Assembly (NCBI GenBank): GCA_900299255.1
Contig: OMJB01000089.1
Coordinates: 1-41,644, forward strand
From: Sphingobacteriales bacterium
Lineage (GTDB): Bacteria; Bacteroidota; Bacteroidia; Chitinophagales; Chitinophagaceae
Direction: 5' to 3'
Length of the DNA: 41,644 nt
The notes under the pieces: generated by a model
Database searches by the model: none
The model's input: only the letters and a program-made list of their open reading frames with translations
What the model was told of the DNA's origin: nothing
Position numbers and translations under genes: made by a program
Part shown: positions 27,541 through 33,497 of the stretch, in pieces
How positions within the stretch are numbered: position 1 is the first letter of the stretch
Layout: each line of letters opens with the position of its first letter

Positions 27541-29013
27541 CTATTGCTGGGCTTTAACTATCTGCTGTTTGTGCAAAAGGTGGCCTTCCATATCCTGAAC
27601 AACCAGCAGGTACATACCAGGCACCAGCCTGTCTGTAAACAGCTGTTGCTCGCCTGCCCATGGAGCCCGCTCCCTGCTCACCATCTGCCCGTTCATATTG
27701 ATAAGGGTATAGTCAACAGGCGTATTGGCCGCCAGCTGCAGTCCTGACACCGTCATCATATTTTGAGCGGGGTTAGGATATACTTTTACAGTATTTACTG
27801 CACTCAACTGGTTGCCTGCTTCAAGTGTATTTGTGTAGTTCTGGTAATAGTAGGTTGTTGTGTAACGCGGCAGCGCAGGGAAGTAAGTGAACCTGTATTC
27901 AAAATCCTTCAGCGAATCCGGGTTATTGGAAGCGTTGTAATGAACCACATCCATTGTCTGTGGCACCCACGAATTGAGCAGGCTGTCAAAACCCTGAATG
28001 TAAACAGTATCAGGCAGGTTCAGCCCGTTTAAGTGCTTGCTCATGTAAAACATGGGAGCCCAGTATCCGTTAATAGCATCCCACTGGTATTGTTTCCAAG
28101 AAGTATGGAACGGTAGTGTTCCGGTATAGGCCATGGTGTCTTTTTCATTCTGCATCAGGCTGGTACCGTTAAACGTGCTGTCTAAAACTGTGAGCAGGCG
28201 GTTGCTTCCATCGTAAGTGTTCACATACTTTTGCTGTATCACCAATGGTAACAAAAAGGATGTATCCGTCATGTTGGCGTAATTGTCAATCTGGATAAGA
28301 TTGTTGCTGCCATCATAAGTGTAATAATCCTTTGCTGCCAGCCTCCATACACCCAGGTGCAGCTCATAGGTACTATCGGCAATAAGCTTGTTGGAAGTGT
28401 TATATGCAAAGTACTGCTTGAAAACACTGTCCACTGTACCGCCAATATAGTTTGAAGAATAACCCACCGCAATCTTATTGGCCGGAGTAAAACTGTTGCT
28501 GAAAACCATATTCGGATTCATAGCCGAGTCAATGTTTGTTGACAGCAAAGCCGTCAGGTTGCTTAAACCATCGTAAGCAGCAATATTGGTTTCATAATAG
28601 CCATACACAAGCGTATTCGGGTCCACTGTCCAGTGCATCATCGTATCATACAATACCTGCGGCCTGGTAAAAGTACCCGCAAAATCAAACATGGGAGTAG
28701 AACTGTATGGATAATTGTAAGGGTATATCATTGTGTTATAGTCGTATGTCGACCCTCTGAAGGCGTTATACCTCAGGTTTACAGAGTCTATCAGCGGCAC
28801 AATGTTACTGTCTCGCGTACTCTGTGCAATTACTCTTTGCAGAGAAACGCCTGCGGTGCCTTTCATACCTGAATGCAGTGCTGCATTTTGCATCAGCAGG
28901 CCGCTTAGCACCCGGCCATGGCTGTTCCTGATGCCTGAATGACTGGCTGACTTGGCCAGCAGCGTGTTGGAAAAAACTGTAAAAAACAAAAAGTAAAAAA
29001 AGCACTTCATCAT
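27541..29013 (-). CDS. Secreted protein with T9SS C-terminal sorting domain
   Basis: The protein is about 490 aa. The start at 29013 (MMKCFFYFLFFTVFSNTLLA) gives a signal peptide; the next ATG at 29010 is equally good. A Ser/Arg-rich stretch follows, then a long beta-rich region with the same degenerate Tyr/Asp repeats as the protein at 23975-25264 (YFAYNTSNKLIA, YYTYDGSNNLIQ, VNTYDGSNRLLT). The C-terminal 85 residues form a type A sorting domain (VKVYPNPAQNMMTVSGL, LINMNGQMVSRE, PGMYLLVVQDMEG, LLHKQQIV). Expected location is the cell surface or medium, through the type IX system. The role is unknown; adhesion or matrix binding is one possibility. Confidence 0.85.
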   Translation of the reverse strand: MMKCFFYFLFFTVFSNTLLAKSASHSGIRNSHGRVLSGLLMQNAALHSGMKGTAGVSLQRVIAQSTRDSNIVPLIDSVNLRYNAFRGSTYDYNTMIYPYNYPYSSTPMFDFAGTFTRPQVLYDTMMHWTVDPNTLVYGYYETNIAAYDGLSNLTALLSTNIDSAMNPNMVFSNSFTPANKIAVGYSSNYIGGTVDSVFKQYFAYNTSNKLIADSTYELHLGVWRLAAKDYYTYDGSNNLIQIDNYANMTDTSFLLPLVIQQKYVNTYDGSNRLLTVLDSTFNGTSLMQNEKDTMAYTGTLPFHTSWKQYQWDAINGYWAPMFYMSKHLNGLNLPDTVYIQGFDSLLNSWVPQTMDVVHYNASNNPDSLKDFEYRFTYFPALPRYTTTYYYQNYTNTLEAGNQLSAVNTVKVYPNPAQNMMTVSGLQLAANTPVDYTLINMNGQMVSRERAPWAGEQQLFTDRLVPGMYLLVVQDMEGHLLHKQQIVKAQQ

Positions 29014-29199
29014 ATTGCTCGTTTGAATGGACAAAATCTATGGAAAGTTAGTATTTAAATTTAAGTATTTCACTTTGAAAATAAAAATAAAAAATATGTC
29101 GCCAACTTTTTGATTAATAATAAAAAAGTATGTATTTTGTGTGTACGTGTGCGGTATATTAAAAATACAACGGGTATCCATTTTCTAAAAAAACAGGCA

Positions 29200-30309
29200 A
29201 TGAAAAGATCGTCTATAGGTAAAACAATCAGGTTAACTGCGATGTGCTATGTGGCCGTGATGGCTGGCATAGCCGCATTTGTTAACTCATGTAGCAAAAG
29301 CACTCCTTCTGCAACAAAAGTAGCCACATCTGAGTCTTCTCTTCAGGTTGATAAAGTTGCAGCGGCACAACCGCTTCAACAGAATGCTCCCCAGACAAAT
29401 ACCGTTACTGTTGCCGCAATCCGTAAATCATCGGATGGCACAGTTAATGAAGTAATGTTTAATGAGCTGGCAGAACTGTTTACTGTACAGGACGCTGCCG
29501 TTCTGGGCGTGCTACAGCATGCGCTAGACAACAACCGCATGGTCAGCATTAAATTCGACCCCTGGAATGGCATTGTTTTGTATGCTAATGTAGTTACTCT
29601 GGCTGAAGAGCAGGCGCATCAAAGCAGGGAAGTGATCAATGCGCCTGGCACTGGCATACCGGTGAACCTGGCCACAATGGACGCTGATGTAATCAACGGA
29701 GCCACAGCTGCTATGTCGGTATTAAACACTTCAACACCAGGCCTTACCAATGTGATTCCCGACTTCGCCACCGCTCAGCTCATGTTCGACTATATAGTGA
29801 AACAATGCTGTGCGCTGCCTTCACCTTATGGAATTGATCATTGTATTTCTTTCCAGTACTGTCAGGATGGTTGTTATGCAAGAGCGCACAAAATGTGCTG
29901 GATCATCAATAACCGTTATCATTATGCTACCCACAAAATATTCAGCTTTGCCAATTCAGGTTCAGACAGATTGAGTGTTAAGTGCCTCAAATGGCGTGGT
30001 TGCTGTGTTACCTGGTGGTACCATGTAGCTCCGCTGGTAAATGTAAAAACCCCGACCGGTGTAAAAGCTTATGTGTTTGATGCTGCTATGTTCGATCAGC
30101 CGGTGTTGCTGGCCACCTGGCTGCATGCGCAGGAAAACCCTTCATGTGTTACAGGTACCAGTGTTGCCCGTGTCTCTATGATTAATATCCAGCCTACTGC
30201 TTCTTATTCTCCTGCTGGTTATTCCGGCCTTACATTTAATACAGACCCAACTTATTCTTCAACAAATAGCACATTAATAAGCTACGCACCGCTGCACACA
30301 TGCTATTGA
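29200..30309 (+). CDS. Protein-glutamine glutaminase-like (protein deamidase) lipoprotein
   Basis: The protein is 369 aa from ATG 29200. MKRSSIGKTIRL then VMAGIAAFVNSC is a lipoprotein signal (Cys31). Residues about 60-205 resemble the inhibitory pro-region of Chryseobacterium protein-glutaminase, including NVIPDFATAQLMFDYIVKQ. The catalytic part follows: DGCYARAHKM (C225), GCCVTWWYHVA (H275) and AYVFDAAMF (D294), in the order and near the spacing of the known Cys-His-Asp triad. Many paired cysteines (CC at the domain start, DHC, QYC, KCL, GCC) suggest disulfides. Protein-glutaminases convert protein Gln side chains to Glu, releasing ammonia. The known enzymes are secreted and cleaved from the pro-region; this one appears membrane anchored. 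No acidic export signal follows Cys31, so a periplasmic face is likely. Confidence 0.82.
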   Translation: MKRSSIGKTIRLTAMCYVAVMAGIAAFVNSCSKSTPSATKVATSESSLQVDKVAAAQPLQQNAPQTNTVTVAAIRKSSDGTVNEVMFNELAELFTVQDAAVLGVLQHALDNNRMVSIKFDPWNGIVLYANVVTLAEEQAHQSREVINAPGTGIPVNLATMDADVINGATAAMSVLNTSTPGLTNVIPDFATAQLMFDYIVKQCCALPSPYGIDHCISFQYCQDGCYARAHKMCWIINNRYHYATHKIFSFANSGSDRLSVKCLKWRGCCVTWWYHVAPLVNVKTPTGVKAYVFDAAMFDQPVLLATWLHAQENPSCVTGTSVARVSMINIQPTASYSPAGYSGLTFNTDPTYSSTNSTLISYAPLHTCY

Positions 30310-30659
30310 TCGTTTCTAAGGTAAATAGAAAAATAAACTCAGCATGCTTCAAAACCTTGCTGAGTTTGTTTTTTTTGCTCGTTTCTATGCAGTCCTGCTC
30401 TGCTCACAAAGGCAGCCGGGTTAAGAAAATGGTAGAAAAACAGATGACCGTGGCTTCCATCAGATCTGAAAACCCTACTGCTGATTTCATCACTGTATGC
30501 TTTCTCGAGTCAGCCAGATTTTACAAACTGTCTAAAAAATCAAAACCTGTATATCTGCAATTATTGAAAGAATCTGAAAAAAAACAAACTGCCGTTTGGG
30601 TCACTCGAACCGACGAAAAATCGGACGAGATTATTAAGGTCCGGGCATTACTTAAGTAG
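30300..30659 (+). CDS. Small lipoprotein overlapping the deamidase gene
   Basis: The protein is 119 aa. The ATG at 30300 lies inside the last codons of the deamidase gene (10-nt overlap, different frame). The N-terminus has a basic region (KVNRKINSACFK), a hydrophobic core (TLLSLFFLLVS) and lipobox MQSC with Cys33. The mature part is short, basic and mostly helical-looking (GSRVKKMVEKQM, KLSKKSKPVYLQLLKESEKK, ending KVRALLK). No family recognised. Overlap with the deamidase suggests coupled translation and a shared function, possibly an anchor, chaperone or inhibitor; this is inference. A perfect 10-bp hairpin followed by T8 lies within its signal-peptide codons. Confidence 0.6.
   Translation: MLLIVSKVNRKINSACFKTLLSLFFLLVSMQSCSAHKGSRVKKMVEKQMTVASIRSENPTADFITVCFLESARFYKLSKKSKPVYLQLLKESEKKQTAVWVTRTDEKSDEIIKVRALLK
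30335..30376 (+). terminator. Intrinsic terminator or attenuator within the small lipoprotein gene
   Basis: Stem AAACTCAGCA (30335-30344) pairs perfectly with TGCTGAGTTT (30358-30367) across a 13-nt loop; one G and then T8 follow. It lies 25 nt after the deamidase stop and inside codons 12-26 of the overlapping lipoprotein. Confidence 0.7.
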
Positions 30660-31854: not shown

Positions 31855-33497
31855 ATGGACATTAAAGTAATGGTTAGCTTTATAAGACGTGAATCTGGGA
31901 ATGATGTCCCTAAGCAGGTCTTATTAATGACAGTAATATCCGGCTTGGCACACTCGTCTTTATTGGCAATAATCAACCATTCTGCTACAAAACTCGTTGC
32001 GAATACTTTCAACTATAAATTTATATTTGTATACATCATCATATATATTATTTGGCTTATTACCAAAAGTCGCGCTCTTCGTCTTACCAATCTATTATCT
32101 GAAACCATAGTTTATAAAGTGCGAAAGCGTGTTGTAAACTACCTGATGAACACAGAACTGGTTCATTTTGAAGAATTAGGCCGCGCAGAGATTTACGCCC
32201 GCCTTACCAAAGACACCAATGAAATAAGCGGCTCTTCTTCCAAATTATTATCGGCATCCAGTCGGCTGTGCTGGTCATTTTTGCACTGATTTATTTGTTG
32301 TTCCTGAATTTCATTGCCTTCCTCATAGCTTTTGTACTGCTTATGTTGCCGATAGCTAATTATTTTATCGGACTGAAACGAATTAAATATGAGTTCAAAG
32401 AATCAGCTGATCTGGAAAACGTATACTTCGAAACAATCAATGAGATAACAGGCGGGTTTAAAGAGCTCAAAATAAATCAACAGAAAAAACACGATATTTT
32501 TTCCGTCAAAGCACAAACATTGACTAAAAAGCTGATGAATATGAAAATAGTTACCGATAACAAAATGAATACCTATTTCATTTTTGCCGTTGGCTGCTTC
32601 TATTTTCTGCTGGGGCTCATGGTTTTTATTGTACCCGAACTTGATAAAAGCGTTTTTGCTGATGTTGCTAAAATTACATCAACAATCATATTTATTATCA
32701 TGCCGCTAAGTGATGCTGTTGGTTCGTTTGATTCTATGAACAAGGCATCTGTTTCTGTTGCCAATCTCATTGACCTCGAAGAAAAACTAAAAAGCAGAAT
32801 CGTTTTCAATAAAGCTGAACCAGTTCTTTACGGGATGTTCGACAATTTCAGCAAAATCAGTTTTAAAGAGCTTGAGTTTGCTTACTTCGACGGTGCCGAC
32901 AAAAAACAATTTGGAATCGGCCCTATAAATTTCGAAGTCAACAGAAGAGAAATCATTTTTATCATTGGAGGAAACGGGAGCGGCAAGTCCACGCTTATTA
33001 AGCTGCTCACAGGCTTATATAAACCAGTTGCCGGAGAAATTGTTGTTGATGATGAAACTGAAATAACTGAGGAAAACTTACAGGAATACAGGGAACTTTT
33101 TGGTGTAATTTTCTCAGACTTCTTTTTGTTTTCAGAGCTCTATGGCATACGAGATCTGGACCCCAGAAGAGTTTTAAAGCTTATTGACAAAATGCAGTTG
33201 TCCAATAAAACCAGCTTTAAAGACAATTCGTTTACCAACAGAAGTCTTTCTACCGGTCAGAAGAAAAGGCTGGCTATGATTTCGCTGATGCTGGAGCAGA
33301 AAAACATTTTTGTGTTTGATGAGTGGGCTGCAGATCAGGACCCTGAATTCCGAAAGTACTTTTATAATGAGCTGATACACGAATTTAAGAAAATGGGAAA
33401 AACAATTATTGCGATTACCCACGACGATTTTTATTTTGGTAAAGCTGATAAAATTTACAAAATGGATTACGGTACTTTTTCGGAATATAAAAATTGA
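31855..33497 (+). pseudogene. Cyclic-peptide-export-type ABC transporter (PvdE/SyrD-like), frameshifted
   Basis: Two overlapping frames together make one fused membrane-ATPase protein of about 546 aa. The first (31855-32289) gives MDIKVMVSFIRRESGNDVPK through ARLTKDTNEISGSSSK. The protein then continues in the -1 frame as FQIIIGIQSAVLVIFALIYL. The shift lies at about 32228-32243; one extra T in the CTTCC there would restore the frame. The ATPase half has Walker A (GGNGSGKST), signature SLSTGQKKRL, Walker B with the diagnostic FDEWAADQDP, and switch ITHDD, which identifies the PvdE/SyrD-type exporter family. All motifs are intact, so decay is recent or the shift is a sequence error. No peptide synthetase or precursor gene is nearby. 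Confidence 0.85.

Follow-up and report, generated by a model that had tools for sequence, protein, structure and literature searches.

The protein-glutaminase (PG) of Chryseobacterium proteolyticum (PDB 3a54, 3a55, 3a56, 2zk9, and 2ksv) and the Flavobacterium enzyme FBPG (8z3i) have a common catalytic fold, a Cys-His-Asp triad, and a pro-region. In this study, a 41,644-nucleotide (nt) contig of a Sphingobacteriales bacterium (OMJB01000089.1; the window) was analyzed, in which a PG gene is directly followed by a small gene, here called the companion, that encodes a stand-alone homologue of the PG pro-domain. In the 2018 genome report of C. proteolyticum QSH1265, a “highly conserved hypothetical protein” shares a predicted promoter with PG (PMC6132073). 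A 22-amino-acid (aa) signal and an 80-aa mature part are described in a sentence that names PG, while its context is the hypothetical protein; in the available excerpts of the report, no pro-region homology is given for this protein and a role in secretion is guessed. Judging from size and linkage, it is probably the companion, which is 101–107 aa long in the Chryseobacterium genomes studied here. Beyond PMC6132073, no stand-alone PG pro-domain or PG inhibitor was found in the open-access literature among the matches listed.

The design of a zymogen with a detached propeptide is already known from SpeB–Spi of Streptococcus pyogenes, where, as in the C10 protease/inhibitor operons of Bacteroides, a small inhibitor gene adjoins the zymogen gene and is co-transcribed with it (PMC2873492, PMC3462683). 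Spi is termed a propeptide analogue, and the Bacteroides proteases and several of their inhibitors, which are staphostatin-like rather than propeptide-like, are predicted to be exported lipoproteins. These enzymes are proteases, whereas the window encodes a deamidase whose partner has the PG pro-region fold. Two Spi-type traits are found in the companion, namely homology to its partner's propeptide as a stand-alone protein and a gene adjoining the enzyme gene. The companion would probably inhibit mature PG, analogous to Spi with SpeB.

Polymorphic toxin/immunity pairs with papain-fold domains also combine a Cys-His-Asp papain-like enzyme with a small partner gene (PMC3482391). In contrast to these toxins, the window PG matches PF18626 and is built like other PGs, including the pro-domain; no domain for toxin delivery was seen in it. 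We know of no immunity proteins that are copies of the toxin's pro-domain. PADLOC analysis of five proteins gave no defense-system match, and the search for mobile elements gave no phage match and one distant plasmid match.

A protein-glutaminase and a detached pro-domain

The PG precursor (Table 1) matched PF18626 (Gln_deamidase_2) with an E value of 1.6e-24 and 86.6 bits against a curated cut-off of 25, and its best PDB match was the Chryseobacterium pro-PG, with 24% identity to 3a56 over Foldseek's alignment. It differs from the Chryseobacterium PG in this identity and in its score of 84.6 bits for the equivalog NF040782 (PG_glutam_Chrys), which is below the required 250. C225, H275, and D294 aligned with the triad of 3a56, and the N-terminal pro-domain was present and superposed on the 3a56 pro-region. 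An original prediction made from the DNA had named a PG with this triad and a retained pro-region; the alignment failure feared for the triad did not occur, and these parts stand, but the adjacent gene for a pro-region homologue had been overlooked. In an alignment of 28 PGs, which includes that of the window and leaves out L025 (frame breaks upstream) and L002 (divergent second copy), C225 and H275 were invariant and D294 was present in 27. The window PG is predicted to deamidate protein glutamine. The PG of L030 (genome G004) is well conserved except that Ala replaces the catalytic Asp (YVFAPAMF), which may be a real change or a sequence error; the companion in this locus has an open frame.

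A scan of named genomes yielded 225 relatives; the breadth counts refer to the best 80 loci of these 225, which hold 83 PG open reading frames (ORFs). The predicted lipoprotein signal of PG was upheld, with Cys31 kept in every aligned sequence and no homologue placing the true start after the lipobox. The distinction that had been drawn, a lipobox instead of the plain secretion signal of the Chryseobacterium enzyme, falls because all 18 Chryseobacterium PG ORFs surveyed (and 67 of the 83 overall) also carry a lipobox-like Cys behind a hydrophobic stretch, as called by a simple pattern test instead of SignalP and counted without C. proteolyticum's own record. The lipid anchor would sit on the pro-region, so that proteolytic cleavage would release the catalytic domain, in line with the original prediction.

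Profile searches with the companion family returned pro-PG first, and the best matches of the companion's predicted structure in fold comparison were also pro-PG. The companion is a detached homologue of the PG's own pro-domain with the same fold, and this family is without a Pfam model. Only profiles and fold revealed the relationship, since pairwise BLAST of the window PG against the window companion found no similarity and the window companion sequence alone found no pro-PG match in the PDB; a profile of the Chryseobacterium companions likewise gave no PDB match. The empty pairwise searches would agree with the original prediction taken alone, that is, a tethered deamidase with its pro-region beside an unrelated small lipoprotein, but pro-PG came first in the profile and fold comparisons and the linkage of the two genes spans phyla, which makes this reading most improbable.

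A lipobox-like pattern was present in 14 of the 27 companions of the window's genus and not in the other 13. Weak Pfam matches to the Phd/YefM antitoxin occurred in 6 of the 27 (best E value, 2.4e-4), with no match for the window companion itself, and 6 of 14 Chryseobacterium companions weakly matched ExbD (E value, 0.0021). Phd/YefM was missing from the structure matches of the companion model, although such an absence excludes nothing; the antitoxin candidate was set aside given the pro-PG fold and the signal sequence. The companion is under purifying selection: in three close pairs, the ratios of nonsynonymous to synonymous substitution rates (dN/dS) were 0.085, 0.15, and 0.21 for the companion and 0.036, 0.087, and 0.053 for PG. 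Most other listed pairs have high dS, and those with dS of at least 1.8 were left out.

Linkage, compartment, and descent of the pair

A companion lies directly downstream of PG in 59 pairs from the surveyed loci, and the two genes overlap by 10 nt in 30 of them when the first start codon found is taken. Companions accompany 35 of 51 PG ORFs in Chitinophagales and other Bacteroidetes, 14 of 18 in Chryseobacterium, all three in Chlorobiaceae, both in Verrucomicrobia, both in Acidobacteria, and the single ones in Xanthomonadales, Gemmataceae, and Brocadia, while PG ORFs of Agrobacterium (one), Flavobacteriaceae (one), and an unplaced metagenome-assembled genome (two) had none. Detached pro-domains are found beside PGs of Bacteroidota, Chlorobi, Acidobacteria, Verrucomicrobia, Planctomycetes, and Proteobacteria, with phyla as in the record titles; because the records from outside Bacteroidota derive from metagenome bins or assemblies, an individual phylum assignment may be mistaken. 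Among the 4504 ORFs of the 80 loci, no further match was found outside PG. The scan output gave 58 matches downstream and one “elsewhere,” which is L124's own companion within a long open frame.

The 35 genomes of the window's genus, including the window's own, comprised 28 with both genes, one with PG only (G002), one with the companion only (G006, in which the locus is cut by the contig start), and five with neither. In 118 Chryseobacterium genomes, PG was present in 69 and the companion in 66, all inside the 69 (Fisher p = 4.9e-30, relatedness uncorrected). Two of these 66 companions are remnants, one in pieces (G756) and one with stops (G762). In those Chryseobacterium rows that were compared by eye, the companion shares contig and strand with PG and lies some hundreds of bases beyond the PG domain. 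PG without a companion was found in G391, G791, and G772, the last with nine PG matches, seven of them within about 13 kb on contig C2. In Chlorobiaceae, the identical 4 of 61 genomes carry both genes. Tandem PGs were seen in L138 (3944–6723), with a single companion between the two, and in L131 (2474–4984), with two PGs and no companion. L002 and L060/L069 encode divergent PG-domain proteins without a signal, whose N-terminal part appears by eye to be two tandem pro-like repeats.

The companion is sent to the same compartment as its PG. A hydrophobic N-terminal stretch was found in both proteins of 46 pairs and in neither of 10, with no mixed pair; L109, L119, and L128 were set aside, as the start of PG is truncated or not in frame in these three pairs. 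The threshold of 1.9 was chosen after viewing the values, which separate both for PG (0.61–1.53 vs. at least 2.15) and for the companions (−1.55 to 0.36 vs. at least 1.90); for L122, in which the motif was not found, residues 1–80 of the frame were taken instead. By record title, the 10 leaderless pairs all lie outside Bacteroidota, and their neighbors were unremarkable by eye from the ORF lists, viewed without a family scan.

From the 137 domains, 61 were hand-picked for spread; on their tree, the cis (within PG) and trans (companion) labels required 3 changes, compared with 19.6 for shuffled labels, and the Chryseobacterium companions grouped beside the Chryseobacterium cis domains. A single companion clade was not rejected (p-AU 0.238); the companions may have one origin or several. 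Over 25 pairs, cis distances were correlated with trans distances (Spearman 0.86, or 0.72 without Chryseobacterium; none of 2000 permutations as high in either), as expected because the genes are inherited together.

The hook loop and the proposed role of the companion

In work of 2011, Hashizume is said to have found that the loop at residue 47 covers the PG active site and that A47Q pro-PG gives enzyme–substrate and acyl forms. The companion-profile alignment shows a single difference between 3a56 and the A47Q mutant 3a54, which locates residue 47, and the Ser-Ala/Gln-Arg of the companions aligns there without gaps. In 57 companions (the 59 without L119 and L122, for which placement failed), this hook residue was Ala in 32, Gln in 22, Glu in 2, and Pro in 1, preceded by Ser in all 57 and followed by Arg in 43 or Gln in 14; S71 and R73 were invariant in the 27 of the window's genus. 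Over the 57 matched loci, the entropies of the three hook columns were 2.49, 1.93, and 1.86 bits in the cis domains vs. 0, 1.27, and 0.80 bits in the companions, whereas the whole-domain means were similar (2.32 vs. 2.10 bits). The profiles used to find companions contain the hook loop, which mildly biases this conservation. On a quickly built tree of these companions, the distinction between Gln and any other hook residue required 11 changes.

We consider it rather likely that the companion is a co-translated, trans-acting inhibitor of PG that mimics the substrate, and it probably works as a built-in off-switch of the enzyme. The companion would be translationally coupled to the lipoprotein PG zymogen, which would be exported with its lipid-anchored cis pro-domain over the active site. 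Once proteolysis has freed the catalytic domain, the companion, present in the same compartment, would dock through its Ser-[Ala/Gln]-[Arg/Gln] loop as a substrate mimic on the active site of PG that was released too early or has come back and would shield the cell's own proteins from deamidation.

Pro-domains of other secreted enzymes help folding, and the companion could instead act primarily as an intermolecular chaperone that aids PG in folding or export, rather than as an inhibitor. The frequent 10-nt overlap would suit this role, and a tie to PG secretion was guessed for the promoter-sharing protein of C. proteolyticum, but that guess rested on signal-peptide similarity only (PMC6132073). 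Moreover, PG still has its own pro-domain, and the active-site loop, superfluous for a pure chaperone, is among the most fixed columns of the companion. The chaperone reading ranks next after the trans-inhibitor and is unlikely.

The Gln hooks would also fit an activator that displaces the cis pro-domain or a decoy substrate with a deamidated hook glutamine, and the A47Q pro-PG paper, going by its title, reportedly deals with enzyme–substrate complexes. However, the more frequent Ala hook cannot be a substrate, and we know of no activator precedent for the pro-PG fold; either role appears improbable. If the companion is a trans-inhibitor, the family might, more speculatively, include one-shot “timer” inhibitors, in which the Gln hook would be attacked and PG held as an S-acyl intermediate until freed by conversion of the hook to glutamate, while an Ala hook would be a lasting lock; the leaderless pairs of other phyla might then form a cytoplasmic enzyme/inhibitor module.

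Neighboring genes and significance

Table 1. Features of the PG locus in the window.
Feature	Position	Strand	Basis or remark
T9SS-sorted secreted protein, about 490 aa, divergently encoded	27541..29034	−	PF18962, E value 4.7e-9
PG precursor, 369 aa, lipoprotein pre-pro-enzyme	29200..30309	+	
PG signal sequence, ending in lipobox V-N-S-C31	29200..29292	+	Cys31 invariant in 28/28 aligned sequences
PG cis pro-domain, about residues 64–135, hook column Ala91	29389..29604	+	Model elements 65–131; superposition on 3a56 pro-region; hook column by alignment
PG catalytic Gln_deamidase_2 domain	29776..30129	+	PF18626 match
PG triad codon, C225	29872–29874	+	
PG triad codon, H275	30022–30024	+	
PG triad codon, D294	30079–30081	+	
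Companion, stand-alone pro-domain homologue, 119 aa	30300..30659	+	Start codon 10 nt inside PG gene end
Companion signal sequence, lipobox-like M-Q-S-C33	30300..30398	+	Sequence
Companion pro-domain, hook S71-A72-R73 (codons 30510–30518)	30432..30647	+	Model pLDDT 84–94 per block

The protein sorted by the type IX secretion system (T9SS) adjoins PG on the opposite strand in 37 of 40 distinct loci (L078–L117; on the far side in L113), four longer loci of the same run being second copies. It is absent from L097 and L103, which are cut by the contig start, and from L112, which is unexplained. Orthologues (E value < 1e-90) were found in 30 of 99 genomes, all of which belong to the 33 that carry PF18626 and none to the other 66; the remaining three of the 33 (G050, G058, and G087) hold other PG types, and four more genomes gave weak matches (E values 1e-13 to 1e-3). 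The protein is kept where the companion is missing (G002 and G039). It accompanies the PGs of this clade in nearly every genome and is a lead to the natural target of PG. It is a possible PG substrate; in 34 sequences, its glutamines were no more conserved than average. Elsewhere, the companion is followed in L024 (2390–3286) and L025 (2445–3314) by proteins that look alike, 298 and 289 aa long, respectively, each with a hydrophobic start, and at 31855–33497 (+) of the window, an ABC transporter is apparently split over two overlapping frames, a membrane part and an ATPase part.

PG is marketed as an enzyme for food use. The 2018 report on C. proteolyticum presented the small gene tied to PG as conserved but hypothetical, with no function assigned. 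A trans-inhibitor role of the companion, if correct, would account for this gene and would provide a handle on PG production and control. The leaderless pairs raise the question of why some bacteria keep a PG in their own cytoplasm. If the companion does act as a trans-inhibitor, the design of a zymogen with a detached propeptide would apply not only to proteases but also to deamidases, across several phyla.
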